From the NCBI RefSeq assembly GCF_033441515.1, contig NZ_JAWQJT010000002.1, forward strand, positions 558,001 to 622,000: a stretch of 64,000 bases of DNA, given 5' to 3'. Below are positions 10,834 to 38,871 of this stretch, in pieces. The position numbers and the translations under genes are program-made. This stretch comes from Amycolatopsis solani (GTDB taxonomy: Bacteria > Actinomycetota > Actinomycetes > Mycobacteriales > Pseudonocardiaceae). How positions within the stretch are numbered: position 1 is the stretch's first letter; every line of letters starts with the position of its first letter. The notes beneath the pieces are model-generated. The model had not been told where the DNA came from. It did no database searches and worked only from the letters and a program-made list of their open reading frames with translations.

Positions 10834-10868
10834 GCCGAAACCCACTCCGGAAGGGAAACCACACCACG

Positions 10869-11672: not shown

Positions 11673-12367
11673 CCTTCGAAAAGCTGCGCGTCGTCGCGCT
11701 CGACTGCGACGGCGTGCTCATCGACGACACCTACCTGGCCATGATCGCCCGGTTCGTCACCGACCACGGCGGGGTCTACGACGCCGCGGCCGAGCGGGAC
11801 GTGATCGGGCTGCGCGACATCGTCGTCGCCGAGAAGGTCACCGCGCTCTGCGGCCTCGACCAGCCGGCCGAGGAAACGCTCAAGCAGCTGTGGGCGGCGC
11901 GGCAGGAGTACCTGGCCGAGCACCCGATCCGCGTCGCCGAAGGAGCGCGGGACGGCCTGGAAGCGCTCTCAAAACTCCCCGTGCGGCTGGTCTGCTACGG
12001 CGGCCGGACCCGCGAGCACACCTTCGACCGGTACCTCGGCGACTTCGTCGACCTGCTCGACCCCGCCGTGCCGTACGTGAGCATCAACGAGCACCGCCCC
12101 GGCGTCGACCACATCACCCGGACCGTCCTCGGGGTGGGCTTCGACGAGATCGTGTTCGTCGACGACGTCAGCCGCGTGGCCGAGGACGCCCGCGCGCACG
12201 GCGCCGGGTTCATCGGGTTCCCGTCGAGTCCCGCGCACGCGCGGCAGCGGGAGTTCATGGCGGGCCACGGGGTCCGGCACTTCGCGGCGTCACTCGCCGA
12301 ATTGACGCCCGAACTCGTGGAGATCGTCGACGCGGAGCTCGCGACTTCGACACACTGGCTTCGTTGA
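11669..12367 (+). CDS. HAD-superfamily hydrolase (predicted phosphatase)
   Basis: 232 residues, ATG 11669 overlapping the upstream TGA. HAD motif I is LDCDGVLIDDTYL (nucleophile Asp and acid Asp spaced DxD), a motif II-like turn is VCYGGRTREHTFDRY, and motif IV is EIVFVDDVSRVAEDARAHG; a helical cap lies between motifs I and II (about 25-90). The protein is of phosphoglycolate-phosphatase size. In this operon it is positioned to remove the phosphate from a DHAP-derived AfsA product, which is inference. The gene contains an intragenic TGGAAGCGCTCTCA at 11958-11971 that resembles the nearby CebR box but is probably fortuitous. Confidence 0.85.
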   Translation: MTFEKLRVVALDCDGVLIDDTYLAMIARFVTDHGGVYDAAAERDVIGLRDIVVAEKVTALCGLDQPAEETLKQLWAARQEYLAEHPIRVAEGARDGLEALSKLPVRLVCYGGRTREHTFDRYLGDFVDLLDPAVPYVSINEHRPGVDHITRTVLGVGFDEIVFVDDVSRVAEDARAHGAGFIGFPSSPAHARQREFMAGHGVRHFAASLAELTPELVEIVDAELATSTHWLR

Positions 12368-24494: not shown

Positions 24495-25891
24495 TACTCG
24501 GCGGCGCCGGTCAGCAGCGACTGGTACCAGGCGTCGTACGGGTGGTTCGTCGCCGGGTAGTTCGCCAACGGCGTGGTCGCCTGGCTCGCCGAGTCGAAGT
24601 CCCAGCCGCGGACCAGCTTGCCCGACTGCCGGGCCGAGGTGATGAACGCCGACTCCGTCGCGGGGGCGCCGTAGAACAGCGCGCCCTGCTGGAGTTCGGC
24701 GCTGTCGCCCTTCTGGAACTCGTCGAACGCGACCTGCCGGTAGCGGATCCGGTCGCCGCCGACGCTCGCGGTGTCCGCGCGCAGGGTGTTCGACGGCGTC
24801 GGGCCGTCGGCACCCGTCCACACCTTCACCCGCTGGGTGCCGCTGGTCGCGGTGTCCTTCGCGAAGCGCGCGTCCGACGTCTTGGCGTTGCCGGTCCAGG
24901 AGACCGTCGTGGCCGACAGCGTGCCGTTCCACGTCCAGTTCTGGCTGCCGCTCTGGCTCTGGTGGATCTCCCGCAGGTGCGTGCCGTCGGTGAACGCGAC
25001 GGTCGGCTGCACGCCGTTGTCGTACTGGTGCGACGCCTGCCAGGTGATCTCGCCGTCCGCGCCGAGCTTGCCGACGTGGTACCAGAGCGTGCTCGCGCTC
25101 TGCGACTGGTGCACCTCGACGAGGTCGCCGTTGTCGTTGAGCGCGACGGCCGGCGTCTGCCCGCTGTCGTACTTGCCGTGCCGCAGCCAGGTGACCCGCC
25201 CGTCGGCACCGTAGGTCCCGGTCCAGTACCAGAGTGCGCCGCCGCCGGAGTCGTGCACCTCGACGAGCTGGCCGCGGCCGTTCAAGGCGACCGCGGGGTG
25301 GTAGCCGACGTCGCGCTTGTATTCCGCGCGGCTCCCGGCGTGCCCGGACAGCAGCGGCAGCACGCGCCCGCGCAGCGCGTCCACCGACGGCTGCCCGGCG
25401 GGGTAGTCCGGCGCGCGCAGCAGCCGGCCGCCGAACACCGACTCCAGCTCCTGGTTGACGGCGGTGAGGTTGCCGGCCGCGAACGAGGGGGTGTCGGTGA
25501 GGTCGTCCTTGAGGTCGAGCATGACGACGATCGGGGCGGCGGCCGGGTGCTGCGCCGACCACGTGTTCACCGCGGCCAGCCAGTCGCGGAGGTTGTTCGA
25601 GGCCGGGTTGCCGCCGCTGTGGTCGACGAGGTTGCCGGGGGAGTCGTGGCCGACGCCGTAGTCGTGGGTGGTCGCGTAGCCGTTGTCGTGGACGTCGAGC
25701 TCGATGAACCGGACGCCGTGGTCGAGCTGGTAGGCGATCGAGTTCTTGGCGCCGTCGACGTTGCCCGAATAGCTGTTGTGCGTCGCCCGGAACACCGACT
25801 CGGTGAACGGCGGGCTCGCGGCGGCGGCCGTCCCGGTCAGCAACGCGGAAGCGCTGAGCGCGGCGACGGCCAATGCGGGCAGGCGGATCAT
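24494..25891 (-). CDS. Secreted phosphatidylinositol-phospholipase C-like protein with internal repeats
   Basis: 465 residues from the ATG at 25891; a longer frame adds 30 residues before a clear signal peptide (MIRLPALAVAALSASALLTG, ending TAAAA). The N-terminal half has the PI-PLC X-domain pattern: SVFRATHNSYSGNVDG with candidate catalytic His38, GVRFIELDVHDN, TTHDYGVGHDSPGNLVDHSG with a second His near 82, and VVMLDLKDDLTDTP. Three tandem repeats of about 50 residues follow (about 195-345), each with (A/T)L(N/T)..G.LVEVH.S.....LWY... text, an unusual insertion resembling beta-propeller or lectin blades. The C-terminal part returns to the PLC fold (GALFYGAPATESAF, RGWDFDSAS). It probably hydrolyses a phospholipid or related phosphodiester outside the cell. 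Confidence 0.85.
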   Translation of the reverse strand: MIRLPALAVAALSASALLTGTAAAASPPFTESVFRATHNSYSGNVDGAKNSIAYQLDHGVRFIELDVHDNGYATTHDYGVGHDSPGNLVDHSGGNPASNNLRDWLAAVNTWSAQHPAAAPIVVMLDLKDDLTDTPSFAAGNLTAVNQELESVFGGRLLRAPDYPAGQPSVDALRGRVLPLLSGHAGSRAEYKRDVGYHPAVALNGRGQLVEVHDSGGGALWYWTGTYGADGRVTWLRHGKYDSGQTPAVALNDNGDLVEVHQSQSASTLWYHVGKLGADGEITWQASHQYDNGVQPTVAFTDGTHLREIHQSQSGSQNWTWNGTLSATTVSWTGNAKTSDARFAKDTATSGTQRVKVWTGADGPTPSNTLRADTASVGGDRIRYRQVAFDEFQKGDSAELQQGALFYGAPATESAFITSARQSGKLVRGWDFDSASQATTPLANYPATNHPYDAWYQSLLTGAAE

Positions 25892-26160
25892 CCTCGGGTC
25901 CTCACTTCGGGGAACGGGGCGAGGCCCATCCTCGCGGTCCCGCGAGGAGTTGTCTTGAATTCCGCGAAAACGGTTGATCACGGTGCCGCGAGAATGGCCG
26001 GAAAATGCTCACGGAATGCCAGATCAAGTGTCCGTTATGTCGTTTTTGTCGCACCGCTTGAAGAATTATGCCAAATCGCTGCGCGGATTCGGTACTTCGA
26101 AGACCCCTCCGTTGTCATTATCCGGAGAAGAGCTGTGCGCAGGCAGGGGAGGCAGTGGGT

Positions 26161-28740
26161 GTGGCGAACGACTGGCCGCTGGTGGGCCGCGAACAGGAGC
26201 TGGCGTTCGCGCGCCGGGCACTGGCCGACGCCGAGGTGTGCGGCCTGCTGCTGACCGGGCGCGCCGGGGCCGGCAAGACCCGCCTGGCCAAGGTGCTGCT
26301 GACCGAGCTGGCCGCCGGCGGGGCGCGCACGCACTGGGTGCGCGCGATGTCGTCGGCGTCCACGATCCCGTTCGGTGCCTTCGCCCACCTCCTGCCGGGC
26401 AGCGCGGACGGCACGGCCGACCGCGCGCACCGGCTCAACCAGGTCGCCGGGCACCTCACGCGGGGCGCGGAAGGACGGCGGCTGGTGCTCTGCGTCGACG
26501 ACGCGCACCTGCTCGACGACCTGTCCGCGACCCTGGTGCACCAGCTGGCCGCGACAGCGTCGGCGTTCGTCATCGTGATCGCGCCGCACGGCGTGAGCGT
26601 GCCCGACCCGGTGTTCGCGATGTGGAAGGACCGCGTCGCCGAGCGGCTCGACGTCGGCGAGCTGAGCCGCGCGCAGACCATCGAGCTCATCACCGCGGCG
26701 CTGGGCGGACGGCTCGAGGACGGCGCGGAGCACCGGCTGTGGCACCTGACCCTCGGGAACCCGCTGTTCCTGCGCGAACTCGTCCAGGGCGGCCTCGACA
26801 GCGGCTCGCTGTCGGCCGCGGACGGCCTGTGGCGGTGGAGCGGCGCCCTCACCGCGACCCCGCGGCTGGTCGAGCTGATCGAAACCCGCACCGACCGCGT
26901 CGACGCCGACGAGCGGCGGCTGCTGGAACTGCTGGCCTTCGGGGAGCCGCTGGGCAGCGAGCCGCTGGTCCGGCTGGGCGCGGCGAGCGTGCTCGCGTCC
27001 ACCGAGCAGGCCGGGCTCGTCGTGTCCGAGCGCACCGGGCGGCGGCTGAACGTCCGCCTGGCGCACCCGCTCTACGCCGAGGTGATCCGGCGCCGGACGT
27101 CGCCGCTGCGGCAGCGCGACACCTACCGGATCCTCGCCCGGACGCTGGACATGACCGGCGCGCGGCGGGCCGAGGACAAGCCGCGGCTGGTCCGCTGGCG
27201 GCTCGCCGCCGGCCTGCCGACCGACCCGCAGCTGGTCCGTGCCGCGGCCGAGACGTTGCTGCGCAAAGACTTCCCGCAGGCCGAGCAGCTGGCCGCGGAA
27301 GCCGTCCGGCTGGGTGGCGGGTTCGCCGCGAAGTACCTGCTGGCCCAGGTCCGGATCGCGGGCGGGCGGCACGCCGACGCCGACGCGCTGCTGGCGGAGC
27401 TCGCCGGCGAGACGGTGTCGGACGCCCAGCACGCGCGCGTGGCCGGGACGCGCGCGCGGAACCTGGCGTTCGGCCTGAACCGCTTCGAAGAGGCGGAGTC
27501 CGTGCTCGACACGGCCGAGACGGCGGTGTCCGGGACGGCCGACGAACTGGTGGTCGCCCGCGCGGCCCTGCGTGCGGCGGAGGGCTCGTGCCGCGCGGCG
27601 CTGGACCTGCTCGGCCCGGTGCTGGACCGCAACCGCCGCGGTGACGTGCTGCGCCTCGGGGCGCTGGTGGTCGCGGCCGGGGCGCTGGCCGAGGCCGGCC
27701 GCACGGAGGCGTGCCTCGGCGTCGTCGAAGAGGGACTGGCGATCGCGGTGTCCGACGCGTCGGTGCCGGGTTCGCGGATCCGGCTGGAGCACGCGCGGGT
27801 GGTGGCGCTGTGCCGCGCCGGTCGTCTGGAAGAGGCCGAGGACCTGGCGGGCGACGACTACCGCGACGCGGTCGGCGACCGCTGGGGCCCGGCACTGGCG
27901 AGCGCGGCGGCGTCCCTCGGCACGGTCGCGCTGGCGTACGGCAACGTCCGGGCGGCGATCCGGCGGCTGCGCGAAGCCCTGACGGTCGAGGGCCACGACC
28001 AGCCCCACGAGTTCCGCCCCGCGGTACTGGGCGCGCTGGCCCGGGCGTGCGCGATGACCGGCCAGGTCCCGGAGGCGGACCTGCCCGGCCCGCTCGGCCG
28101 CTGGGCCGCGGCCTGGGCGTGCGCGGCCGGGGGCGAGCTGACCCGCGCGGTGTCACTGGCCTCGGAAGCGGCGTCGGCAGCGGAGTCGACGGGCCGGGCG
28201 GCGATCGCGGCCGAGATCCGGCACGACCTCGTCCGCTTCGGCGTCCCCGAGTTCTCGTCGGATTTGGCCGGTCCACTGGTGTCGTCGTACGCGGCGCACG
28301 CACGGGCCCTGTCCGCCGGTGACGCGGCCGCCCTGGACGCGGCCGCGACGGCGTTCGCCGACGTGGGCGCGCGCTTGCTCGCCGCGGAGGCGGCGGCGGA
28401 GGCATCCCGAGCCCACCGCGCGGCGGGAAAACTGGGCAGCGCGGTCGGTTCGGCCCAGCGGGCCCAGACGTGGCTGGCGTCCTGTGAGGACGCCGCGACG
28501 CCGGCGCTGGCGCTGCTGGACACGCCCCTCGATTTGACGGTCCGCGAGCTGGAGATCGCCCGCCTGGTCGCAACGGGCCTGACCAGCCGAGCCGTCGCGG
28601 ACCGGCTCGTGGTGTCGGTCCGAACGGTGGACAACGTGCTGCACGGCGTCTACGCGAAGCTGGGTATCTCGGGGCGCCGGGAGCTGGCGTCGGTGGTGGG
28701 CCGTCCGGAGCCGGGGAGTAGCGCGGACGACGGCCCGTAG
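26161..28740 (+). CDS. LAL-type LuxR regulator with N-terminal ATPase domain
   Basis: 859 residues, start GTG 26161 behind AGGGGAGG. It is a large ATP-binding regulator of the LuxR family. An AAA/STAND module is at 5-300, with LVGREQELAFARRAL, Walker A GRAGAGKT at 33-40 and Walker B VLCVDDAHLLDD near 110-120. A long Ala/Leu-rich TPR-like region (about 330-770) follows, and a LuxR HTH is at the end (LDLTVRELEIARLVATGLTS, then VSVRTVDNVLHGVYAKLGIS). Such LAL proteins often activate sugar or secondary-metabolite genes after binding a ligand in the TPR region. It lies alone, divergent from the PI-PLC-like gene and 130 bp before the repeat-protein operon, which could be a target; that is inference. 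Confidence 0.92.
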   Translation: MANDWPLVGREQELAFARRALADAEVCGLLLTGRAGAGKTRLAKVLLTELAAGGARTHWVRAMSSASTIPFGAFAHLLPGSADGTADRAHRLNQVAGHLTRGAEGRRLVLCVDDAHLLDDLSATLVHQLAATASAFVIVIAPHGVSVPDPVFAMWKDRVAERLDVGELSRAQTIELITAALGGRLEDGAEHRLWHLTLGNPLFLRELVQGGLDSGSLSAADGLWRWSGALTATPRLVELIETRTDRVDADERRLLELLAFGEPLGSEPLVRLGAASVLASTEQAGLVVSERTGRRLNVRLAHPLYAEVIRRRTSPLRQRDTYRILARTLDMTGARRAEDKPRLVRWRLAAGLPTDPQLVRAAAETLLRKDFPQAEQLAAEAVRLGGGFAAKYLLAQVRIAGGRHADADALLAELAGETVSDAQHARVAGTRARNLAFGLNRFEEAESVLDTAETAVSGTADELVVARAALRAAEGSCRAALDLLGPVLDRNRRGDVLRLGALVVAAGALAEAGRTEACLGVVEEGLAIAVSDASVPGSRIRLEHARVVALCRAGRLEEAEDLAGDDYRDAVGDRWGPALASAAASLGTVALAYGNVRAAIRRLREALTVEGHDQPHEFRPAVLGALARACAMTGQVPEADLPGPLGRWAAAWACAAGGELTRAVSLASEAASAAESTGRAAIAAEIRHDLVRFGVPEFSSDLAGPLVSSYAAHARALSAGDAAALDAAATAFADVGARLLAAEAAAEASRAHRAAGKLGSAVGSAQRAQTWLASCEDAATPALALLDTPLDLTVRELEIARLVATGLTSRAVADRLVVSVRTVDNVLHGVYAKLGISGRRELASVVGRPEPGSSADDGP

Positions 28741-28870
28741 GTAGCCGGCGGTGTGAGCCAGGGAGAAGCCGAGTAGAGCGCTACTCATGACCGAGGCGGT
28801 TGTCGGTTCGACACTGGATGACAACGGAGGGGCACGGGCTTCACCGATCCGAATGTCAGGAGTGCACAGG

Positions 28871-30037
28871 ATGACGACTTCATCGGGCGACGTTTTCCAG
28901 AACGAGCAGGGTTCGGGTGGTTCCGGGGGGAACCAGTTCAACGAGCAGGCTTCCACGGGTGGCTCGGGGAACATTTTCCAGAACGAGCAGGGTTCCGGTG
29001 GTTCCGGTGGGAACCAGTTCAACGAGCAGGCCTCGACGGGTGGTGGTTCGGGGAGCATCTTCCAGAACCAGCAGGGTTCCGGTGGCCACGGGGGGAACCA
29101 GTTCAACGAGCAGGCGTCGACCGGCGGCCGTGGCGGCGACATCTTCCAGAACGAGCAGGGCTCGGGTGGCCACGGGGGCAACCAGTTCAACGAGCAGGCC
29201 TCGGCCGGCCACCACGGTGACGTGTTCCAGAACGAGCAGGGCTCGGGCGGTCACGGTGGCAACCAGTTCAACGAGCAGGCCTCCACGGGTGGCGGCGTTG
29301 GCAACATCTTCCAGAACGAGCAGGGCTCGGGTGGCCACGGTGGCAACCAGTTCAACGAGCAGGCCTCCACGGGTGGCGGCGTTGGCAACATCTTCCAGAA
29401 CGAGCAGGGCTCGGGTGGCCACGGTGGCAACCAGTTCAACGAGCAGGCCTCGACCGGCGGCCACGGTGGCGACATCTTCCAGAACCAGCAGGGCTCGGGT
29501 GGCCACGGTGGCAACCAGTTCAACGAGCAGGCTTCAACGGGTGGCCGCGGCGGCGACATCTTCCAGAACCAGCAGGGTTCGGGCGGTCACGGTGGGAACC
29601 AGTTCAACGAGCAGGCCTCGACCGGCGGTCACGGGAGCATCTTCCAGAACGAGCAGGGTTCTGGCGGACACGGCAACCAGTTCAACGAGCAGGCCTCCAC
29701 GGGCGGCCACGGGAGCATCTTCCAGAACGAGCAGGGCTCGGGCGGGCACGGTGGCAACCAGTTCAACGAGCAGGCCTCGACCGGCGGCCACGGCAACATC
29801 TTCCAGAACCAGCAGGGTTCTGGCGGACACGGCAACCAGTTCAACGAGCAGGCCTCCACGGGCGGCCACGGCAACATCTTCCAGAACGAGCAGGCCCAGG
29901 GCCACCACGGCGGCAACCAGTTCAACGAACAGGCTGCCACCGAGCACCACGGCGGCCACGAGCACGAGCACCACGAGCACCACCACGGCGGCCACGACCA
30001 CGACCACGGCCACCACCACGACGTCGAGCACTACTGA
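28871..30037 (+). CDS. Gly/Asn/Gln repeat protein with His-rich tail, first gene of an iniBAC-like operon
   Basis: 388 residues from ATG 28871, with AGGAG 8 nt upstream; in-frame starts upstream would add 28 residues of ordinary sequence. After MTTSSGD the protein consists of 13 tandem units of about 27 residues, each containing (I/V)FQN(E/Q)QGSGG, then GNQFNEQAS, then TGG. The last 30 residues switch to a His/Asp/Glu-rich tail (EHHGGHEHEHHEHHHGGHDH and on to DVEHY) that should bind divalent metals. There is no signal peptide or membrane helix. By position before two dynamin-like GTPase genes it corresponds to the Gly-rich IniB of mycobacteria, although the repeat sequence itself is not one I recognise. 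A structural, phase-separating or adhesive role is a guess. Confidence 0.8.
   Translation: MTTSSGDVFQNEQGSGGSGGNQFNEQASTGGSGNIFQNEQGSGGSGGNQFNEQASTGGGSGSIFQNQQGSGGHGGNQFNEQASTGGRGGDIFQNEQGSGGHGGNQFNEQASAGHHGDVFQNEQGSGGHGGNQFNEQASTGGGVGNIFQNEQGSGGHGGNQFNEQASTGGGVGNIFQNEQGSGGHGGNQFNEQASTGGHGGDIFQNQQGSGGHGGNQFNEQASTGGRGGDIFQNQQGSGGHGGNQFNEQASTGGHGSIFQNEQGSGGHGNQFNEQASTGGHGSIFQNEQGSGGHGGNQFNEQASTGGHGNIFQNQQGSGGHGNQFNEQASTGGHGNIFQNEQAQGHHGGNQFNEQAATEHHGGHEHEHHEHHHGGHDHDHGHHHDVEHY
28890..29935 (+). repeat. About 81-bp coding tandem repeat, 13 units
   Basis: The DNA unit is marked by ATCTTCCAGAACGAGCAGGG and, half a unit later, CAACCAGTTCAACGAGCAGG; 72-84 bp separate successive copies. Units at about 29270-29430 are identical over long stretches, which suggests recent duplication, while the first and last units are more diverged. 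Unit lengths vary by whole codons only, so the array evolves under coding constraint. Confidence 0.85.
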
Positions 30038-30096
30038 GCAGCACGACTGAACAGCACGACTGAGCAGTAGCACGACTGACCAGCACCACTGAGCCC
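30036..30096 (+). repeat. 13-bp repeats duplicating the stop-codon region
   Basis: After the natural end GAGCACTACTGA the sequence continues GCAGCACGACTGA, ACAGCACGACTGA, GCAGTAGCACGACTGA and CCAGCACCACTGA. Each unit carries a TGA; because two of the copies are 13 bp long, the stops fall in different frames. It fills most of the 82-bp gap before the next gene. Confidence 0.75.
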
Positions 30097-30119
30097 GGCG
30101 CAAAGAACGAGGAGCGGTC

Positions 30120-31958
30120 ATGCAGGAGCCGAGTGGCGGGGGGCGCGTCGCCCTCGACACCCTCGACCTCGCGGTCAAGGGGGCGAAGGCCTACGGGCGG
30201 GACGATCTCGTCCAGCGCCTCACCGACGCCCGGCGCCTGCTGTCCGAACCGGACGTCACCGTCTACGTCGTCGGGGAATTCAAGCAGGGCAAGAGTTCGC
30301 TCATCAACGCCCTGCTGACCGCCAAGATCTGCCCGGTCGACGACGACATCGCGACCGCGGTGCCGACCGTTGTCCGGTACGCGCCGGAGTCCGGGGCTCT
30401 GGCGACCTACGAGCCGGCCGATCCGTCGTCGCCGCCGTGGACCGAGCGGATCTCCCTCGAAGACCTGCCGAACCACGTCAGTGAAGCCGGGAATCCCGGC
30501 AACCTGCGGAAACTGAAGTCGGTCACCGCGTCGATCAGCCGCCAGCTGCTGTCCGGTGGGCTGGTGCTGGTCGACACCCCCGGCGTCGGCGGGCTCGGCT
30601 CGCTGCACAACGCCGTCACCGTGAGCTCGCTCCCGCGGGCGCACGCCGTCCTGTTCCTCTCGGACGCTTCCCAGGAACTCACCGGCGCCGAACTGCGGTT
30701 CCTCCGGACGGTCAAAGAACTCTGCCCGAGTGTCTTCTTCGTCCTCACCAAGATCGACCTCTACCCGCAGTGGCGGCGCATCCTCGAACTGAACGCCGGC
30801 CACCTCGAAGCGTGCGGCATCGTCATCGACACCGTCGCCGTCTCCTCGGAGCTGCGGACCATCGCGGCCCGGTCGGCCGACCAGGAGATGAACGTCGAGT
30901 CCGGCTTCCCGCAGCTGGTCAAGCGCCTGCAGGGCGTGGTCGGCGACGCCGAGCGGTCCGCGCTCAACGCCGTCGGCCTGCACGTCGGGTCCGCGGTCGG
31001 GCAGCTGCACGCCGGCCTGCGCGCCCGCCGGACCGCGCTCGCGCACCCCGAACAGTCCGCCGCGCTCGTCGCGGAACTCAGCCGCGTCAACGACCGCGTC
31101 GACGCGCTGCGCAGCCAGTCCGCCAAGTGGCAGCAGCTGCTCTTCGACGGCTTCGCCGACATTTCGTCCGATGTGGACTACGACCTGCGCGCCCGCTCGC
31201 GAGGGGTGCTGCACGAGGCCGAAGAGGCCATCGAGGACGGTGACCCGGCCAAGAACTGGGCCGAGTTCGAGAAGTGGCTGCGGCAGCGCCTGGCGAACGA
31301 GACCCTCGAGAACTACACGACGTTCGTCAAGCAGGCCAGGGGACTGGCCGGCCGGGTCGCCGACCACTTCGAGCTCGCCGAGTCCCAGGCCGTGCTGCCG
31401 CGCGAGGTCCAGGCGCCGGTGAAAGTCGTCGAGGAGATCGACATCGACGCGTCCTTCACCGGCGTCAAGACCCGCGGCGCCACCGGGATGGCCGCGTTCC
31501 AGAAGGCCTACAGCGGGTTCCTGATGTTCTCCATGCTCACCAAGATGGCCGCGCTGGCCATCCCCACGCCGTTCGGGGTCGCGGCCGGCCTGCTGATGGG
31601 CCGCTCCGGGTTCCTCGACGAACGCAAGCGGCAGCTGGAAAAGCGCCGCGGCCTGGCCAAGACGGCGGTGCGCCGGTTCGTCGACGAGTTCAACCTCCAG
31701 GTCGGGAAGGACTCCCGCGACGCGATGCGGACCGTCCAAAGAGAACTCCGCGACGCCTACAGCGCGCGCGTCGAAGAACTCCAGCGGTCCCTCACCGAGG
31801 CGCTGGCCAACGCGAAGAAGGCGGTCGTCGACGACGACGCCGAGGCGGCCGAGCTCAAGCGGCTCGAAGCCGACATCGAAGCCCTCGAGGTGCTCGGCCG
31901 GCGCGCCGACGAGCTCACCGTCCGCAGCGCGCCCAAGTCACTGGCGGTGACCGGATGA
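30120..31958 (+). CDS. Dynamin-like GTPase, IniA-like
   Basis: 612 residues, ATG 30120 behind GAGGAGCGGTC. The GTPase elements are complete: G1 GEFKQGKS (52-59), a switch Thr in the PVDDDIATAVPTVVRY stretch, G3 DTPG (152-155) and G4 TKID (210-213). A long helical region follows, then a hydrophobic hairpin (SGFLMFSMLTKMAALAIPTP to AAGLLMG, about 462-493) that should insert into membranes, and a C-terminal coiled coil with Glu/Ala/Lys-rich text (about 540-600). This is the bacterial dynamin-like layout, closest to IniA, which in mycobacteria is induced by cell-wall inhibitors and promotes membrane fission. Its TGA overlaps the next ATG, so the second GTPase is co-translated and probably a partner. 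Confidence 0.9.
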   Translation: MQEPSGGGRVALDTLDLAVKGAKAYGRDDLVQRLTDARRLLSEPDVTVYVVGEFKQGKSSLINALLTAKICPVDDDIATAVPTVVRYAPESGALATYEPADPSSPPWTERISLEDLPNHVSEAGNPGNLRKLKSVTASISRQLLSGGLVLVDTPGVGGLGSLHNAVTVSSLPRAHAVLFLSDASQELTGAELRFLRTVKELCPSVFFVLTKIDLYPQWRRILELNAGHLEACGIVIDTVAVSSELRTIAARSADQEMNVESGFPQLVKRLQGVVGDAERSALNAVGLHVGSAVGQLHAGLRARRTALAHPEQSAALVAELSRVNDRVDALRSQSAKWQQLLFDGFADISSDVDYDLRARSRGVLHEAEEAIEDGDPAKNWAEFEKWLRQRLANETLENYTTFVKQARGLAGRVADHFELAESQAVLPREVQAPVKVVEEIDIDASFTGVKTRGATGMAAFQKAYSGFLMFSMLTKMAALAIPTPFGVAAGLLMGRSGFLDERKRQLEKRRGLAKTAVRRFVDEFNLQVGKDSRDAMRTVQRELRDAYSARVEELQRSLTEALANAKKAVVDDDAEAAELKRLEADIEALEVLGRRADELTVRSAPKSLAVTG

Positions 31959-33430
31959 TCCCGCTCTACGTCCAGGTCCGCGGGTTCGTCGCCCGCGCGT
32001 GCGCCGGTTACGCGGGCACGCCCGCCGAGCCGCAGCTGCGGCAGATCGCCGGCCGGCTCGCCGAGCCGCTGCGCGTCGCGATCGCCGGCCGCGTCAAGGC
32101 CGGGAAGTCCACGCTGCTCAACGCCCTCGTCGGCCAGGAGCTCGCGGCGACCGACGCGGGGGAGTGCACCCGGGTCGTCACCTGGTACCGCAACGGCCCG
32201 ACCTACCGGATCATGCTGCACCCCGTCCGCGGCATCCCGCGGCAGCTGCCCTTCGGCAGGCTGTCGGGCACCCTCGGCCTCGAACTCGGCATGGCGCCCG
32301 ACGACGTCGACCGGCTCGTCGTCGACTGGCCGTCGCCCGCCCTGCGCGTGCTGACGCTGATCGACACGCCCGGGCTGGGGTCGGCGCGGGCGGAGGTCTC
32401 CGGCCGCACGGAAGCGGCGCTGGTCCCCGAGGGCGACGGCGTGAGCACCGCGGACGCCGTGGTGTACCTGATGCGGCACGTGCACGGCGACGACGTCCGC
32501 TTCCTCGACGCCTTCCACGACGACCCGGCGCAGCGGCGCCCGGTGAACACGATCGGCGTGCTGGCGAAGGCCGACGAGGTCGGGCACGCCCGGGTCGACG
32601 CGCTCGATTCGGCGGCGAAGATCGCCACCCGCTACGCCCGCGATCCGCGGGTCCGCGGGCTCTGCCAGACCGTGGTGCCGGTGGCCGGGCTGCTGGCCAG
32701 TTCCGCGGCGTCGCTCAAGGAATCGGAATTCCGCGCGTTCCGGCGGCTCGCGGCCGCGCCGGAGAGCGAAGTGGCAAGGCTGCTGACGTCGGCCGACCGG
32801 TTCGCCGCCGGTGAGTCCGATGTGGACGTCCCGGCGGCCGAACGGGCCGAACTGCTCGCCCGCTACGGCCTTTTCGGCGTGCGGCTGGCGGCCGAGCTGG
32901 TCCGCGGCGAGCTGGTGACGGGCGCGCGGGCGTTGTCGGGCGAGCTGCTGGCCCGCAGCGGCCTGCACCGCCTCCGGTCGCTGCTGACGACGCAGTTCGC
33001 CGCGCGGGCCGACGTGCTCAAGGCCCGCTCGGCGCTGGAGGCGGTGGAACTGGTGCTGCGCTCCTACCCGGATCGCACCGGCGGGCTGCTGCACGAGTGG
33101 GAGCGGATCGTCGCCGGGGCGCACGAGTTCGCGGAGATCCAGCTGATCGACTCGATCCGGCTCGGCGTCGTGCTGTTCACCACCGACGAGGCCCGCGACG
33201 CGGAACGGCTGCTCGGCGCGACCGGGGTGGACGTGCCGAGCCGGCTGGGCCTGCCGGGGGGCGCGGGCCGCGGCGCGATCCGGCAGGCGCTCGGCGCGCA
33301 GCTGCTGAGGTGGCAGCGGCGCGCCGAGCACCCCGCGTCCCCGCGCGACGTCCGCGACGCGGCGCGCGTGTTGGTCCGCACGTGCGAAGGCATCCTGCTC
33401 AGCGAAGCCAGGGCGGAGGTCCTGTCGTGA
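31955..33430 (+). CDS. Dynamin-like GTPase, IniC-like partner
   Basis: 491 residues, ATG 31955 overlapping the upstream stop. G1 is GRVKAGKS (45-52) in a RVAIAGRVKAGKSTLLNALV context, G3 is LIDTPGLGS and the G4-like motif is VLAKAD. The rest is helical and Arg/Leu-rich, without the membrane hairpin seen in the first GTPase. In mycobacteria iniA and iniC are adjacent in the same way. The pair suggests a hetero-oligomeric membrane-remodelling machine. Downstream its stop overlaps the GTG of the acidic repeat protein gene. Confidence 0.88.
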   Translation: MIPLYVQVRGFVARACAGYAGTPAEPQLRQIAGRLAEPLRVAIAGRVKAGKSTLLNALVGQELAATDAGECTRVVTWYRNGPTYRIMLHPVRGIPRQLPFGRLSGTLGLELGMAPDDVDRLVVDWPSPALRVLTLIDTPGLGSARAEVSGRTEAALVPEGDGVSTADAVVYLMRHVHGDDVRFLDAFHDDPAQRRPVNTIGVLAKADEVGHARVDALDSAAKIATRYARDPRVRGLCQTVVPVAGLLASSAASLKESEFRAFRRLAAAPESEVARLLTSADRFAAGESDVDVPAAERAELLARYGLFGVRLAAELVRGELVTGARALSGELLARSGLHRLRSLLTTQFAARADVLKARSALEAVELVLRSYPDRTGGLLHEWERIVAGAHEFAEIQLIDSIRLGVVLFTTDEARDAERLLGATGVDVPSRLGLPGGAGRGAIRQALGAQLLRWQRRAEHPASPRDVRDAARVLVRTCEGILLSEARAEVLS

Positions 33431-34707
33431 CCGACCAGCCGAAGGGCAAGATCAGGAAGGCCGTCACGGCGGCCGCCGGCGCCGTCGCGTCGGAACTGGT
33501 GGGCAACGCGCTCACGCCGGGCGCGACCCCGCCCCCGCCCCCGCCACAGCCGGAGCCCGTCGCCGCGGAGACCGCGCACGACGTGCCCGAGCACGAGTAC
33601 GTCCCCGAAGTCGAGACCAGCACGGTCACCCGCGGCGAGGACGGTTCGGTGGCGGCGCAGACCGGCACCGTGTGGCACCCCGAGACCGTCGACGGCCTGC
33701 CGCTGAAGGACCTGCCCACCGTCGAGGAGTTCGAGCAGATCGAGGTCCGCGAAGACGAGTTCGGCAACTTCATCATCGACGCGACCGAGCGGTTCGTGGT
33801 GCACACCAACGGCCACGACGAGGTCTACACCGACCACCAGCACATCGTCGTGCCCGGCGACGGGACACCCGGCGACACCGACATCGACATCGTGCAGGAC
33901 GCCGACATCGTCATCCACGAGAACCCGGACGGCACGATCACCGTGGAGCACCAGGGTTCGCTGACCTACGAGCTCACCCCGGACGCGCCGGGGCACGGCG
34001 ACATCGAGATCTTCCAGGAGGAGACGGTCCTGCTCGACGAGGCCGAGACCGGGCCGCCCGGGATCGACGTCGCGGTGACCGTGGACGAGCAGGCGAAGGC
34101 CGACGACCCGTTCGGCGAGCCGGCCGGGCCGGCCATCCACCAGACCGAGGTGATCGCCGACAAGGGCCGCGGGGCCACGGTGACTGCGCAGGTCACCGCC
34201 CCCGCGCCGGCGCTGCCCGGGGCACCGCCACCGGCGGTCGTCACGTTCACCCGCACGCCGTCCACAGTGGACGCCGCGCCGGTGGCCGTCGAGACGACGA
34301 CGCTGGCGGCGTCGGCGTCGCTGGCCGAGCACCCGGTGCCGCGGCACAGCTTCGCCACCGAACGCGAGCCGGCGCACCACGACGCCGGCGAGGTCACCGG
34401 AAGCCGCCCGCATCCGTTCGAGCCGCCGCGGCACGACGCCGGTGAGGTCACCGGGAGCGAGCCGCCGCCGGGGGAGCACCCGTTCGAGCCGCCGCGGCAC
34501 GACAACGGGACCCAGCCGTCCCCGGAGGAGCACCCGTTCGAGCCGCCGCGCGACCACGAGCCAGGCCCCGGGCCGGCGTCGGACCACGTGCCGGGCGACC
34601 CGCCACCGCAGCGGCACGAGCCGCACGAAGACCACCTGGCGGAACCGGAGCCGGTTCCCGAAGACCACCCGATTCTCGACCACGCGCACGCTGACGGCGG
34701 AGGCTGA
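33427..34707 (+). CDS. Acidic, proline-rich protein of unknown function in the dynamin/Hsp70 operon
   Basis: 426 residues from GTG 33427 (GTGA overlap). The first 28 residues (VTDQPKGKIRKAVTAAAGAV, then ASELVGNA) form a basic amphipathic helix. A strongly acidic middle region follows (about 60-230: VEEFEQIEVREDEFGNFIID and IDIVQDADIVIHENPDGT), looking like stacked short beta strands, then Ala/Pro-rich linkers. The C-terminal 130 residues contain imperfect repeats of HPFEPPRHDAGEVTGS and end DHPILDHAHADGGG. No signal peptide or known domain is visible. Being encoded between an IniC-like GTPase and an Hsp70, it may be a scaffold or client of one of them. Confidence 0.8.
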   Translation: MTDQPKGKIRKAVTAAAGAVASELVGNALTPGATPPPPPPQPEPVAAETAHDVPEHEYVPEVETSTVTRGEDGSVAAQTGTVWHPETVDGLPLKDLPTVEEFEQIEVREDEFGNFIIDATERFVVHTNGHDEVYTDHQHIVVPGDGTPGDTDIDIVQDADIVIHENPDGTITVEHQGSLTYELTPDAPGHGDIEIFQEETVLLDEAETGPPGIDVAVTVDEQAKADDPFGEPAGPAIHQTEVIADKGRGATVTAQVTAPAPALPGAPPPAVVTFTRTPSTVDAAPVAVETTTLAASASLAEHPVPRHSFATEREPAHHDAGEVTGSRPHPFEPPRHDAGEVTGSEPPPGEHPFEPPRHDNGTQPSPEEHPFEPPRDHEPGPGPASDHVPGDPPPQRHEPHEDHLAEPEPVPEDHPILDHAHADGGG

Positions 34708-34708
34708 C

Positions 34709-36304
34709 ATGGGCTACGGACTGGGCATCGACCTCGGCACGACCTTCACGGCCGCCGCCGTCGACCGGGCCGGCCACGTCGAAATGGTGTCGCTCGGCGA
34801 CCGCACGGCGGCCATCCCGTCGGTGGTGCTGCTGCGGCCCGACGGCAGCGTGCTGGTCGGGGACGCGGCGAGCCGGCGCGCGACCGTCGAGCCGGACCGC
34901 GTCACGCGGGAGTTCAAGCGGCGCCTGGGCGACCCGACGCCGGTGCTGCTCGGCGGCGCGCCGCACTCGGTGGCGTCGCTGATGGCCCACCTGCTCGGGT
35001 ACGTGGTCCGGACGGTCGCCGGGCAGCAGGGCGGGCGTCCGGACCGGATCACGCTGACCCACCCGGCGAACTGGGGGCCGTACAAGCGGGAGCTGTTCGA
35101 ACAGGTGCCGAAGCTGACCGGGATCGACCGCGTCGGCCTGATCACCGAGCCCGAAGCCGCGGCCGCGCACTACGCGGCGCAGGAGCGGCTCGACGAGGGT
35201 GCCGTCGTCGCGGTGTACGACCTCGGCGGCGGCACGTTCGACGCGACCGTGCTGCGCAAGCGCAACGGCGGCTTCGAGATCCTCGGCACGCCGGAGGGCA
35301 TCGAGGGCCTGGGCGGGGTCGACTTCGACGAGGCCGTGTTCGGGCACGTCGACCGGATGCTGGACGGCAAGCTGTCGCAGATCGACCCCGACGACCCGGG
35401 CGCGGTGGCGGCGGTCGTCCGGCTGCGCCAGGAATGCGTGCTGGCGAAGGAAGCTTTGTCGGCGGACACGGAGGTGGCCGTCCCGGTCCTGCTGCCCTCG
35501 GTCCAGACCGAGGTGCGGCTGACGCGTGGCGAATTCGAGGAGATGATCCGCCCTTCGATCACGGCGACGCTGGGTTCACTGCACCGCGCGCTGAGGTCGG
35601 CCAACCTCCGCCCGGCCGACCTGGGAGCGGTGCTGCTGGTCGGCGGCTCGTCCCGGATCCCCCTGGTGTCCCAGCTGGTCTCGGCCGAGCTGGGCCGCCC
35701 GACGGCGGTCGACATCCACCCGAAGTACGGCGTCGCACTGGGAGCGGCGGCGCTGGCTTCGGGCCGGTCGGGCTTGGTGCAGGCGACGGAGGCGCGGCCG
35801 ATGACCCCGCCGCCGGTGCCCTTGCCGCTGGTGCCGTCGCCGCGGGAGGAGACGCGCGTGCCGGTGTCCCGCGGGCCGGCGCCCCGCGAGGAGACGCGCG
35901 CGATGGCGGCGCCCGAGTTCGGCGCGGGCGCCCCGCCGCCGTCCCTGGGCCGCCCGAAGTCGGACACCCCAGGCCGCCGAGCGTCCCGGCGCGGCGTGGT
36001 GGTGGGCTTGTGCGCGGTGGCGGTGGTGGCGATCGGCGGCGTGGCGGTAGCGGTGAGCAGCTCCGGCGGCGGCCCCTCGGGCAACACCCCACCGGCGACG
36101 AGTTCGGCGAGCGAGACACCGGAATTGGTGACGCTGCCGCCACCGGAGACACCGCAGACAACACACGCGACGGTGGTGCCCCCGCACACGAACGCGCCGG
36201 TCACCACGCGACGCAAGACGCCACCGAAGACGACGACCCCGACGAAGACGACCACGCCGACGACGACCACCACGCCGACGACAACCACGACCCCGACCAC
36301 CTGA
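34709..36304 (+). CDS. Membrane-anchored Hsp70-type ATPase lacking the substrate-binding domain
   Basis: 531 residues from ATG 34709, one base after the previous stop. Residues 1-365 form a complete actin-like Hsp70 ATPase: LGIDLGTTFTAAAVD (phosphate 1), AVYDLGGGTFDATVL (phosphate 2) and LLVGGSSRIPLVSQLV (adenosine motif), with GLITEPEAAAAHYAAQ in between. The peptide-binding domain is missing. In its place come a Pro/Arg linker (about 370-425), one membrane helix (GVVVGLCAVAVVAIGGVAVA, about 431-450) and a Thr/Pro-rich tail of about 80 residues, predicted outside. It looks like a sensor or nucleotide-driven regulator that couples cytoplasm to envelope rather than a general chaperone. It ends the operon. 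Confidence 0.92.
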   Translation: MGYGLGIDLGTTFTAAAVDRAGHVEMVSLGDRTAAIPSVVLLRPDGSVLVGDAASRRATVEPDRVTREFKRRLGDPTPVLLGGAPHSVASLMAHLLGYVVRTVAGQQGGRPDRITLTHPANWGPYKRELFEQVPKLTGIDRVGLITEPEAAAAHYAAQERLDEGAVVAVYDLGGGTFDATVLRKRNGGFEILGTPEGIEGLGGVDFDEAVFGHVDRMLDGKLSQIDPDDPGAVAAVVRLRQECVLAKEALSADTEVAVPVLLPSVQTEVRLTRGEFEEMIRPSITATLGSLHRALRSANLRPADLGAVLLVGGSSRIPLVSQLVSAELGRPTAVDIHPKYGVALGAAALASGRSGLVQATEARPMTPPPVPLPLVPSPREETRVPVSRGPAPREETRAMAAPEFGAGAPPPSLGRPKSDTPGRRASRRGVVVGLCAVAVVAIGGVAVAVSSSGGGPSGNTPPATSSASETPELVTLPPPETPQTTHATVVPPHTNAPVTTRRKTPPKTTTPTKTTTPTTTTTPTTTTTPTT

Positions 36305-36663
36305 TCTGAGCGATCCGGCTCCGGCCGCCCACGCACCCGGCTCCTGTGGCCCGGCCCGGCGACCTGACCGGTTGGGCGACTGGCGGTGGCGTGGCTCCCG
36401 CCCGGCCCCACCGGCGGCTCGCCGCCAGCGGCCCGGGCCGGCGAGCAAACCCCAGCGGCCCACCCCAACGCCCGGAAAGTCCCCTTCACCAAATCCAACG
36501 CCATGAAGGGGACCTTCCTGCCATCACACGCCAGCAAAGTCCCCTTCACGACACCCCGCCAGCCCGACCGCAAGCCCAGTATGTGAGAGATTTTCCAGCC
36601 CAAGGAGTGAAGCCGCGCGACCTGCCGTTGACCAGCGCCGTTCGCCACCCGCAAGTAGAGTCG
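36305..36663. other. Gene-free interval with family D repeats
   Basis: 359 bp after the Hsp70 gene. The only recognisable content is three arms of an AAAGTCCCCTTCA repeat (36473-36550). The AT-richer stretch AGTATGTGAGAGATTTTCCA near 36578-36597 could hold the transporter promoter, but no confident -10/-35 pair was found. Confidence 0.55.
36473..36550. repeat. Family D repeat (GGAAAGTCCCCTTCA)
   Basis: GGAAAGTCCCCTTCA (36473-36487) pairs with TGAAGGGGACCTTCC (36504-36518) with one mismatch, and a third, direct arm AAAGTCCCCTTCACG follows at 36536-36550. It lies about 170 bp past the dynamin/Hsp70 operon. Confidence 0.75.
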
Positions 36664-37827
36664 GTGATCTTCCTCCGCTCCGCCCCGGTGCGGCCCACCA
36701 CCGCCGCCCGGCAGCTTGCGTTGCTCGCCGTCGTGCAGGTGGGGGCCATGAGCGTCTGGTTCTCCGCCTCCGCCGTCGTTCCCGCCCTGCGCGCCGAATG
36801 GGGGCTTTCGCGCGAGTACGGCATCCTCCTGACCGTCGCCGTGCAGGTCGGGTTCGCCTGTGGTGCCGTCGTTTCGGCCGCCTTCACCCTCGCCGACCGG
36901 ATCCGCCCGCGGACGCTCATTGCCGCCGGTGCGCTGCTCGCCGCGGTCGTCACCGCCGTCCTGCCGTGGTGCGGGCAAGCGTTCGTCGTCCCGCTCCGGT
37001 TCGCCACCGGCTTCGCGCTCGCCGGCGTCTACCCGGTCGGGATGAAGGTCGTCGTGTCGTGGTTCCCCCGCAAACGCGGGATCGCGCTGGGCACCCTGCT
37101 CGCGGCCCTGACGCTCGGCTCGGCCCTGCCCAGCCTCCTGGCGCCACTGGACTGGCAAGCCGTCCTGCTCTGCGCCGCCGTCCTCGCCACGATCGGGGCC
37201 GCCGTGTCGGCGCTCTTCGTCCGCGAAGGGCCGGATCGGGTGCCTTCGCCGCCGTGGCAGCCGCGGTACGTACTGCGGATGGTGGCCGACCGGCGGCAGC
37301 GGCTCGTGTGCCTCGGCTACTTCGGGCACATGTGGGAGCTCTACGCCCTCTGGGCCTGGCTGCCCGCCTACCTCGCCGAAACCGGAACCGAAACCGGAGC
37401 GGGCGGAGTGACCGCCTTCGCCGTCATCGGGATCTGCGGCGCGGCCGGGTGCCTGCTCGGCGGCGCGCTCTCGGACCGCTGCGGCCGGGCCGTCGTCGCG
37501 ATGACGGCCATGCTCGTCAGCGGGGGCTGCGCCGTGCTGTCCTCCGCCGTCTCCGGCACTTTCCTGCTGCTGCCCGTGCTGCTGGTCTGGGGCGTGGCCG
37601 TGATCGCCGACTCCGGGCAGTTCTCCGCCGCGCTCGCCGAGGCCGCCGATCCGCGGTACGTCGGCACCGCGCTCACCGCCATGACGGCGTTCGGCTTCCT
37701 GCTCAGCGCCACCACGATCCAGCTGCTGCCGCTCCTGGCCGACGCCGTCGGCTGGCGGGCCGCCGTGCCCGTGCTCGCCGTGGGGCCCGCGCTCGGCGCT
37801 GCCGCGATGCACCACCTGCGCCGGTAG
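36664..37827 (+). CDS. Major facilitator superfamily transporter
   Basis: 387 residues from GTG 36664; a GTG nine codons later is an alternative and neither has a strong ribosome-binding site. About 11-12 membrane helices are predicted. The first half has MSVWFSASAVVPALRAEWGL and GFALAGVYPVGMKVVVSWFP, typical of the CynX/nitrate-like MFS branch; the second half has GGALSDRCGRAVVAMT. The cytoplasmic loop FVREGPDRVPSPPWQPRYVL joins the halves. The substrate is unknown. Its stop is 9 bp before cutA, so the genes may be co-transcribed, but no functional link is obvious. Confidence 0.85.
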   Translation: MIFLRSAPVRPTTAARQLALLAVVQVGAMSVWFSASAVVPALRAEWGLSREYGILLTVAVQVGFACGAVVSAAFTLADRIRPRTLIAAGALLAAVVTAVLPWCGQAFVVPLRFATGFALAGVYPVGMKVVVSWFPRKRGIALGTLLAALTLGSALPSLLAPLDWQAVLLCAAVLATIGAAVSALFVREGPDRVPSPPWQPRYVLRMVADRRQRLVCLGYFGHMWELYALWAWLPAYLAETGTETGAGGVTAFAVIGICGAAGCLLGGALSDRCGRAVVAMTAMLVSGGCAVLSSAVSGTFLLLPVLLVWGVAVIADSGQFSAALAEAADPRYVGTALTAMTAFGFLLSATTIQLLPLLADAVGWRAAVPVLAVGPALGAAAMHHLRR

Positions 37828-37836
37828 CCTCTCGGC

Positions 37837-38154
37837 ATGGCGGAGCACGTGATCGTGACGTCCACGACGGACTCGGAAGCCGCAGCGCGGGAGCTGGCCA
37901 CCCAGGCGGTGGCGGAACGGCTGGGGGCCTGCGCCCAGGTGGTCGGCCCGATCACCAGCGTCTACCGCTGGGACGGCGCGGTCCAGGCCGACCAGGAGTG
38001 GCGGGTCGAGATCAAGACGACCACCGGCCGCGTACCGGCACTGACCGCACGCCTGAGACAGCTGCACAGCTACGACCTCCCCGAGGTCGTGGCCACGCCG
38101 ATCGTCGGCGGCAGCGCCGACTACCTCGCCTGGGTGAGCGCCGAAACTGACTAA
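37837..38154 (+). CDS. cutA: CutA-family protein (periplasmic divalent cation tolerance family)
   Basis: 105 residues, full length for CutA. The ferredoxin-like fold signatures are all present: VIVTSTTDSEAAARELATQA at the start, RLGACAQVVGPITSVYRWDG with the conserved Cys and YRW, EEWR-type EWRVEIKTT, LHSYDLPEVVATPI and the terminal YLAWV. CutA forms very stable trimers; its role in copper tolerance is disputed. The gene is followed after 9 bp by the RraA-like gene. Confidence 0.95.
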   Translation: MAEHVIVTSTTDSEAAARELATQAVAERLGACAQVVGPITSVYRWDGAVQADQEWRVEIKTTTGRVPALTARLRQLHSYDLPEVVATPIVGGSADYLAWVSAETD

Positions 38155-38163
38155 GGTCAGGGA

Positions 38164-38871
38164 ATGGAGCTCGAAGGACTCAGACAGCGCTTCGCGACGC
38201 TGACCACCGCCCACGTCGCCGACGCGTGCATCCGCGCCGGCCTCCCCGTGCGGTGCGCCCCGGCGCCGACGCGCGCGGTGGTACCCGGGGGACGGCTGTT
38301 CGGCCCGGCGGTCCCGGCCCGGCACGTCGGCAGCGTCGACGTCTTCCTGGAAGCGTTCGAAACCGCGGCCGAGGGCGGGGTGCTGGTCGTCGACAACGGC
38401 GGACGTCTCGACGAAGCCTGCGTCGGCGACCTCGTCGTGCTCGAGGCGCGCGCCGCCGGGCTTTCCGGCGTGCTGATCTGGGGCCTGCACCGCGACACCG
38501 CGGACATCCGGGCCATCGGGCTCCCCGTGTTCAGCCTCGGGTCCCTCCCGACCGGCCCGCTCACCCTCGGCCCCCGCGTCGACGGCGGCCTCGCCGAAGC
38601 GATCGTCGGCTCCTGGCGGGTCGGGCCGTCGGACCTCGTGCTCGGCGACGACGACGGTGTCCTCTTCGTCCCGCTCGCCCGCGCCGGGGAGCTGTTCGCG
38701 CTCGCCGAGGCGATCCGCGACACCGAACGCCGTCAGGCCGACCGGATCCGGGCCGGCGAGCCGCTGCGGGAGCAGGTGCGCTTCGCCGACTTCCTCACCG
38801 CCCGGGAAGCGGATCCCGGCCTGACCTTCCGCGCGTACCTGCGGGCCGTCGGCGGGGCCATCGAAGAATGA
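38164..38871 (+). CDS. RraA-like family protein (possible HMG/oxaloacetate-type aldolase)
   Basis: 235 residues from ATG 38164. The RraA fold is recognised by TTAHVADACIRAGLPVRCAP, GGVLVVDNGGRLDEACVGDL, GLSGVLIWGLHRDTADIRAI and DLVLGDDDGVLFVPLARAGE, including the Asp and Arg (HRD) residues that bind the metal and pyruvate-type substrates in HMG aldolases. Such proteins are often misnamed menaquinone methyltransferases. True RraA inhibits RNase E in enterobacteria, which is unlikely here. The protein is about 50 residues longer than E. coli RraA, with a C-terminal helical extension (READPGLTFRAYLRAVGG). Confidence 0.85.
   Translation: MELEGLRQRFATLTTAHVADACIRAGLPVRCAPAPTRAVVPGGRLFGPAVPARHVGSVDVFLEAFETAAEGGVLVVDNGGRLDEACVGDLVVLEARAAGLSGVLIWGLHRDTADIRAIGLPVFSLGSLPTGPLTLGPRVDGGLAEAIVGSWRVGPSDLVLGDDDGVLFVPLARAGELFALAEAIRDTERRQADRIRAGEPLREQVRFADFLTAREADPGLTFRAYLRAVGGAIEE

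Follow-up and report, generated by a model that had tools for sequence, protein, structure and literature searches.

An Hsp70-type protein is a regular component of iniBAC-type loci in sampled Actinomycetota and a candidate partner of IniC

An iniBAC-type operon in Amycolatopsis solani

The soil actinomycete Amycolatopsis solani (genome of 10.28 Mb) carries a variant of iniBAC, the membrane-remodelling operon linked to tuberculosis. The variant lies in a stretch of 64,000 nucleotides that was analysed as a whole (the window; contig NZ_JAWQJT010000002.1, positions 558,001–622,000), and window coordinates are used throughout. Five collinear plus-strand genes at 28871–36304 encode, in order, a repeat protein, IniA, IniC, an acidic protein and an Hsp70 without a substrate-binding domain (SBD), with products of 388, 612, 491, 426 and 531 residues. 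Their successive junctions are 82 bases, a 4-base overlap, a second 4-base overlap and a 1-base gap, and the five genes are presumably co-transcribed. We find that the Hsp70 is a regular, overlooked component of ini loci in the sampled Actinomycetota and not an add-on of the window. A preliminary description of this DNA had listed the five consecutive genes, the last four overlapping or abutting, and all of them are present; the unit is larger, however, since an upstream AAA/LuxR regulator and a palindrome had been missed. The following features were recognized:

26068–28740, plus strand: AAA/LuxR (STAND-type) regulator of 890 residues, called WinR here, with AAA_16 and GerE domains
28771–28786, no strand: perfect palindrome GAGTAG-N4-CTACTC, predicted regulator-binding site; single copy in the genome, conserved in Amycolatopsis
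28871–30037, plus strand: Gly/Gln/Asn-rich 13-repeat protein in the IniB position, with 13 NQFNEQ and 13 [IV]FQN[EQ]Q units
30120–31958, plus strand: IniA dynamin-like GTPase; Dynamin_N (Pfam), match to IniA structure 6j72 at E=5.8e-95
31955–33430, plus strand: IniC dynamin-like GTPase; Dynamin_N (Pfam), 4-base overlap with iniA, IniC profile matches relatives
33008–33412, plus strand: C-terminal domain of IniC, predicted Hsp70 partner from linkage counts, a structure model and its occurrence on kinase-type proteins beside Hsp70
33427–34707, plus strand: acidic protein, GTG start, isoelectric point 4.4; small-residue N-terminal segment, beta-strand region at about residues 56–258, low-confidence acidic tail
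34709–36304, plus strand: Hsp70-type ATPase (HSP70 Pfam, catalytic residues) without SBD, with a membrane helix (hydropathy) and a Thr/Pro-rich tail
35999–36055, plus strand: predicted membrane helix of the Hsp70, residues 431–449; 19-residue hydropathy mean of 2.75

The match of IniA to the solved M. smegmatis protein spans residues 15–589 and IniC lies directly downstream, which bears out the earlier assignment to the iniBAC type. The best segment of this IniA is 98% identical to A. vancoresmycina, and its closest named relatives are Amycolatopsis species. IniC was assigned from Dynamin_N, its position downstream of IniA and a profile built from the family loci; this profile also matches the f8 loci at about 500 bits. 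The f8 loci with Hsp70 belong to order-level genomes that are taken to be mycobacterial. The counted repeats, Dynamin_N on both GTPases and the acidity of the fourth product likewise agree with the preliminary description.

The Hsp70 of the window matches the Pfam HSP70 family at E=9e-53 and retains D8, T11, T12, K70, E147, D171 and T176, which we take to be the catalytic residues of Hsp70. No SBD was found, since the Pfam match stops at profile position 377 of 599 and the rest consists of linker, helix and Thr/Pro-rich sequence. The protein has one strong hydrophobic segment, followed by the tail, as previously proposed.

Distribution and co-inheritance of Hsp70 in ini loci

The loci compared comprise 60 from the window's family around IniA matches (our own selection among the matches listed), 40 of the 42 places listed for other families (second matches in genomes G332 and G384 were left out) and 79 named loci, which include Pseudonocardia, Actinomycetospora, Kutzneria, Lentzea, Actinoplanes, Acidimicrobiia and Nitriliruptorales. 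Profiles were built from the 60 family loci and then run on the others. All 60 family loci contain Hsp70, and once seven duplicates were dropped it was found in 145 of 172 loci (60/60, 22/25, 10/15 and 53/72). Loci with at least 6 kb on both sides were counted as assessable (128 of the 172, the window not counted). Among these loci of related Actinomycetota, Hsp70 is located near IniA in 122, a STAND/LuxR regulator is present in 119 and IniC was counted in 126, although L134, one of the two counted as lacking IniC, does have it. Hsp70 and the regulator occur together in 117 assessable loci, Hsp70 only in 5, the regulator only in 2 and neither in 4; those without Hsp70 are L102, L121, L123, L125, L186 and L199. 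For L031–L130 the regulator count uses the IniR profile only, and a search with the window regulator covered L031–L090 (one match, L032) and L131–L209, not L091–L130.

The ini Hsp70s group together with a support of 0.98, in a clade that excludes the five further Hsp70-type proteins of the A. solani genome (two DnaKs and three others). Trees of 152 loci gave Mantel correlations of tree distances of r=0.59 for Hsp70/IniA, where the maximum of 1,000 permuted values was 0.13, r=0.74 for Hsp70/IniC and r=0.91 for IniA/IniC. In the six genomes with two ini loci, the genome-mate was never among the three nearest relatives of an Hsp70, and in 10 of these 12 loci the three closest neighbours by Hsp70 and by IniA had at least two members in common. 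Duplicates were left in the trees; L043 and L045 therefore have copies of themselves, L187 and L206, as nearest neighbours. Fusion of Hsp70 to another ini protein was not found in the ORFs of L031–L209 (domain E<1e-5, IniA/IniC pairs set aside).

Two side observations concern Hsp70 copy number and context. In the f8 loci L096, L105, L108 and L126 a pair of degenerate Hsp70 copies surrounds the ini genes; L096 and L126 have a DnaK-like Hsp70 as well, several kilobases further away. The three Hsp70s without ini context in the A. solani genome lie, by eye, near a helix-turn-helix protein and WXG-like genes (L210), near recA/recX-like genes (L211) and near a 1342-residue EccC-like protein and a WXG-like protein (L212).

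Three arrangements were distinguished. In the common form (type I), the Hsp70 gene leads directly into that of IniR, with a 4-base overlap in 21 loci, and the pair is divergent from iniB-iniA-iniC. In the second form, Hsp70 either stands alone and divergent or lies downstream, and IniR is found at another place in the vicinity. The third, W-type form is that of the window and was also found in Amycolatopsis (five named loci), Pseudonocardia and Actinomycetospora; within the genus, 17 of 80 genomes have a W-type IniA and 79 have some IniA. In L134 (Amycolatopsis sp. 2-2), IniA and IniC form a single frame of 1101 residues at 9001–12306, either a natural fusion or a sequence error. The preliminary description had regarded the Hsp70 and the acidic protein as two extensions of the operon. 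Conservation beside the GTPases in 122 of 128 loci contradicts this for Hsp70; the acidic gene, seen in W-type loci only, is indeed a local addition, which counts against the five-gene form as a conserved unit.

Catalytic core and ectodomains of ini Hsp70s

Among 146 ini Hsp70s, the catalytic core is kept in 83 and absent in 63, and parsimony requires at least six changes of state from an intact root. A membrane helix was predicted in 106 of the 146 by a crude hydropathy rule that misses some cases (L032, probably L140). Pfam ectodomains were found on 9 of 13 ini-type Hsp70s scanned, mostly picked for length: propeller-family domains in L032, L138, L095, L098, L118 and L216, BON in L160 and L165, and the galactose-binding-like Exop_C in L220; none was found in L049, L073, L054 or L218. 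These domains suit a part that would read the surface.

Many type-I Hsp70s (L058–L090) share the motif RPPV[ED]ITPL after the ATPase domain, with or without a membrane helix. It resembles the start of the DnaK substrate domain; a looser pattern occurs in 41 of the 146 Hsp70s, the window's not among them.

Linkage of Hsp70 genes to the C-terminal domain of IniC

Linkage was counted in 20 genomes chosen from those already known to have ini loci, with splits at 260 bits (Hsp70) and 95 bits (IniC domains) set after the lists had been seen. An ini-type Hsp70 lies within 12 kb of 36 of 37 strong IniC C-terminal domains, and 37 of 43 ini-type Hsp70s have a strong domain within that distance. By comparison, 0 of 75 other Hsp70s lie near such a domain, 75 being all those listed in these genomes down to about 133 bits; an earlier count had taken matches to 189 bits only, with 32 other Hsp70s. 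Weak relatives of the domain, which we guess to be DynB-like, have an Hsp70 within 12 kb in 1 of 15 cases. Chance linkage of Hsp70 to ini loci is rejected by the counts of 60/60, 122/128 and 36/37. The one exception among the strong IniC-type domains may be half of a split pair: 41 kb away is an ini-type Hsp70 that likewise has no partner nearby (G014:C1:4477695 and 4436499).

We also searched 30 genomes for ini-type Hsp70s away from known IniA and examined nine regions. None of the seven regions from the window's family has an IniA profile match, and in four of them (L216, L218, L219 and L220) the C-terminus of a protein matches the IniC C-terminal domain. Profile A6 of this domain includes four seed proteins from these regions, which match it by construction. 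L218 and L219 encode histidine kinases with only the last ~130 residues of IniC. In L216, a whole IniC (391.7 bits) stands behind a region with a sub-threshold HisKA_3 match and adjoins a LuxR response regulator. The L220 protein has no Pfam match, and an IniC-domain protein was not found in L217, L221 or L222. Taken together, the linkage counts and the IniA-less regions point to the C-terminal domain of IniC as the element that keeps Hsp70 company, with or without IniA.

The model of this domain is all-helical, with a predicted local distance difference test score (pLDDT) of 94.8, and shows a weak resemblance to J-domains. An HPD motif occurs in none of 170 IniC-type domains and in all of 30 control J-domains, themselves chosen with the HPD pattern. 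The linkage of Hsp70 and IniC is observed, and their physical contact is a prediction.

Regulators and candidate control DNA

Against the IniR profile, WinR scored 16.8 bits, compared with ~970–1250 bits for type-I loci, many of which built the profile; by this measure the window regulator is not an IniR. Homologues of WinR are also found with this type of operon elsewhere, in differing positions.

The palindrome between WinR and the operon is the only copy in the genome and, with one mismatch allowed, occurs once in the window against 0.02 expected. It is kept before the operon in five Amycolatopsis loci, in one of them with one change. Across the genus it is present in 18 of 80 genomes (10 of 80 for a backward control pattern), and it was found in 14 of 17 genomes with a W-type IniA and in 4 of 63 others (Fisher p=1e-9); each of these 14 has one copy, 1.0 to 1.8 kb before iniA. 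In other W-type loci, with a spacer of N3–N5 allowed, it precedes the acidic gene, Hsp70 (L138), iniA or the iniB slot, and in the Acidimicrobiia locus L148 it lies between Hsp70 and iniB. We predict that it is the operator of the operon.

IniR-type loci have a different element, [CT]CCCTAA, between Hsp70 and iniB, often as direct repeats 8 bases apart. It occurs 112 times in 244 kb of Hsp70-iniB regions and 52 times in 2764 kb elsewhere (172 loci), but the enrichment is partly built in, since the motif was chosen on 38 type-I loci that were then included in the count; no copy was found in the window. The positions of both elements would place Hsp70 in the regulon. An unrestricted palindrome scan of all loci returned GC-rich words only, no better than the control. 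No sigma-70-type promoter or intrinsic terminator was found in 28500–36700, where the scan is uninformative for a GC-rich host, and Rfam gave no match at gathering cut-offs in 25800–38500.

A possible envelope-sensing role for Hsp70 and its alternatives

iniBAC has served for more than two decades to mark stress from wall drugs, yet IniB, IniC and the signalling route are poorly understood. Membrane binding by IniA and its fission activity are established, and the study of IniC was prevented by its instability (PMC6715688). IniR is the activator of iniBAC in both M. marinum and M. tuberculosis, with promoter binding shown in the latter, and one sentence of the same source places a dnaK-like gene beside iniR in M. 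smegmatis (PMC5760070). In M. bovis BCG, wall inhibitors raise ATP, and iniBAC induction is suppressed when this rise is suppressed (PMC6104191). A 2026 text on iniBAC mentions no Hsp70 or chaperone (PMC13413693), and no functional account of the ini Hsp70 was found by title or abstract in the open-access papers searched, subscription papers and preprints being outside that scope.

Our preferred reading, to which we give a probability of about 0.5, is that Hsp70 is an envelope-sensing transmembrane switch that acts on IniC and belongs to a regulated module for envelope remodelling. The operon would be turned on from a dedicated operator by a STAND/LuxR activator, WinR in the window and IniR in the common arrangement, and the products would be the IniA/IniC dynamin pair, the repeat protein of the IniB slot, the accessory acidic protein and the membrane-anchored Hsp70 ATPase domain. 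The outside part of Hsp70 would read the state of the wall or surface, and the cytosolic ATPase domain would bind the C-terminal helical domain of IniC, and would thereby control whether the IniA/IniC pair assembles or is active at damaged membrane. Hsp70 thus probably relays envelope state to IniC; we infer both the sensing and the direction of control. The preliminary description had already coupled Hsp70 to the GTPases across the membrane. That idea gains from the ectodomains of the relatives, and the linkage data would narrow it to IniC instead of both GTPases; against it, the Hsp70 of many relatives has lost the catalytic residues. If Hsp70 is a standing partner of IniC, then IniC acquires a testable role and the system a candidate envelope sensor, and Hsp70 ATPase domains would be placed in receptor-like bacterial signalling.

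Several observations weigh against such a switch. In the window itself, the outside part is the Thr/Pro-rich tail only. The catalytic core is absent from 63 of the 146 ini Hsp70s, many of them also without a membrane helix by our rule, so that ATP-driven transmembrane switching is not universal and turnover is not needed everywhere. In type-I operons Hsp70 overlaps IniR rather than IniC, and 6 of the 43 ini-type Hsp70s lack a strong IniC domain in their 12-kb vicinity. PMC5760070 reports the dnaK-like gene for M. smegmatis only; since M. tuberculosis and M. marinum also have an iniBAC response, Hsp70 may be dispensable.

The overlap with IniR (exactly 4 bases in the 21 type-I loci) invites the alternative that Hsp70 controls the STAND/LuxR activator, holding IniR or WinR inactive or assembling it, in a sensor-regulator pair with output genes. 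The joint presence of both in 117 of 128 assessable loci fits this, as do the many predicted pseudo-ATPases, which would suit a regulatory scaffold. We nevertheless consider it unlikely: five assessable loci have Hsp70 and no regulator found nearby (one of them, L032, has a WinR-type gene), the regulator is far from Hsp70 or on the opposite strand in many loci of the second and W-type forms, and the IniA-less regions share the IniC domain, with a two-component regulator replacing IniR in L216. By analogy with Hsc70 and auxilin, which act on clathrin, Hsp70 might instead assemble or disassemble a dynamin coat, recruited by the IniC C-terminal domain as a J-like domain without HPD. The three best Foldseek hits of the domain model are xRbj (two chains), which we take to be a J-domain protein, and a human DnaJ-like domain; J-domains also rank second and third in a PDB sequence-profile search, the hhalign score to J-domains exceeds all 51 control windows and the domain has an [NSHD]-P-hydrophobic loop between two long helices. 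We regard this explanation as doubtful too, to a similar degree, and the two could hold in different lineages.

It is improbable that the module is an anti-phage or conflict system and not a response to drugs or wall stress. The GTPases do match LeoA/LeoBC defence profiles (best E 2.1e-16), the ectodomains and the IniB slot are variable, and the conflict systems of PMC7159879 pair GTPases with Hsp70, some without a peptide-binding domain. However, LeoA/LeoBC-type dynamins were the only matches in the defence-profile scan, IniA is the closest solved relative by a wide margin and 79 of 80 genomes of the genus have some IniA, in contrast to the patchy spread of defence islands. Least credible is that Hsp70 and the acidic gene are unrelated passengers of one transcription unit. 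The restriction of the acidic gene to W-type loci agrees with this, and the acidic protein may still be a passenger; for Hsp70 the idea is largely refuted by linkage in 122 of 128 loci, in several arrangements and orientations.

We tentatively extend the preferred reading to a broader possibility, which we hold with less confidence: Actinomycetota may use membrane-anchored Hsp70 ATPase domains as surface receptors. Their variable ectodomains (propellers, BON, carbohydrate-binding) would face outwards, and inside the cell an IniC-type J-like helical domain would serve as adaptor, carried by a dynamin GTPase in ini loci or by a histidine kinase in fusion loci. If so, iniBAC would be one output among those of a general signalling architecture built on Hsp70 receptors.

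Comparison with known systems

The window shares with mycobacterial iniBAC and IniR the homology of IniA, the iniA-iniC pair, a Gly-rich protein in the iniB slot, an adjacent AAA/LuxR regulator and, from the M. smegmatis sentence cited above, a dnaK-like gene nearby. It differs in its regulator, in a palindrome unlike the repeats of IniR-type loci, in lacking a detectable IniB N-terminal domain, in the added acidic protein and in an Hsp70 that is last in a collinear operon with intact catalytic residues. A type-I locus of the same genome (L070; G000:C3:2168777) also has Hsp70, IniA, IniC, IniB and a regulator, but its Hsp70 is degenerate, overlaps the IniR gene and diverges from iniB-iniA-iniC, and two [CT]CCCTAA repeats take the place of the palindrome.

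The bacterial dynamin pairs DynA/DynB and CjDLP1/2 are likewise tandem dynamin-like GTPases but are not known to come with Hsp70; the weak relatives of the IniC domain, DynB-like by our guess, have Hsp70 nearby in only 1 of 15 cases. DO-GTPase systems (PMC7159879) also combine an Hsp70 with a single GTPase or a pair; the peptide-binding domain is absent in some, and a DnaJ domain is present in some. The GTPases are described there as a TRAFAC family not recognized before, partnered by GAP1 proteins, and the paper does not use the words dynamin, IniA or IniC.

Repeat protein, acidic protein and neighbouring genes

The acidic protein is a local novelty of the window operon and accessory to it. 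Its family numbers 59 proteins when that of the window is counted, precomputed Pfam domains are absent from all of them, and the named members are nearly all from Amycolatopsis. Relatives were found in L031, L032 and L140–L143, and in some W-type loci the gene precedes Hsp70; in L138 and L144–L147 the interval between IniC and Hsp70 is too small for an acidic gene. The model has beta strands at residues 56–258, with pLDDT of 75–91 at residues 61–200 and 54–75 beyond, and a low-confidence tail (mean pLDDT 60).

An IniB N-terminal domain was not detected in the window repeat protein by NCBIfam scan and sequence inspection; it is nearby in 51 of 60 family loci, by a profile made from 30 of those loci. 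An alternative in-frame ATG at 28787 immediately follows the palindrome, and the 28 residues that it would add are mostly conserved in the close relatives L131–L133, which leaves the true start of the repeat protein uncertain. In Actinomycetospora (L140–L142), a Cys/Tyr/Pro-rich protein upstream of IniA replaces the Gln/Asn repeat protein, so the slot is highly variable. Downstream of the operon, an ORF for an MFS-type transporter lies on the same strand at 36346–37827.

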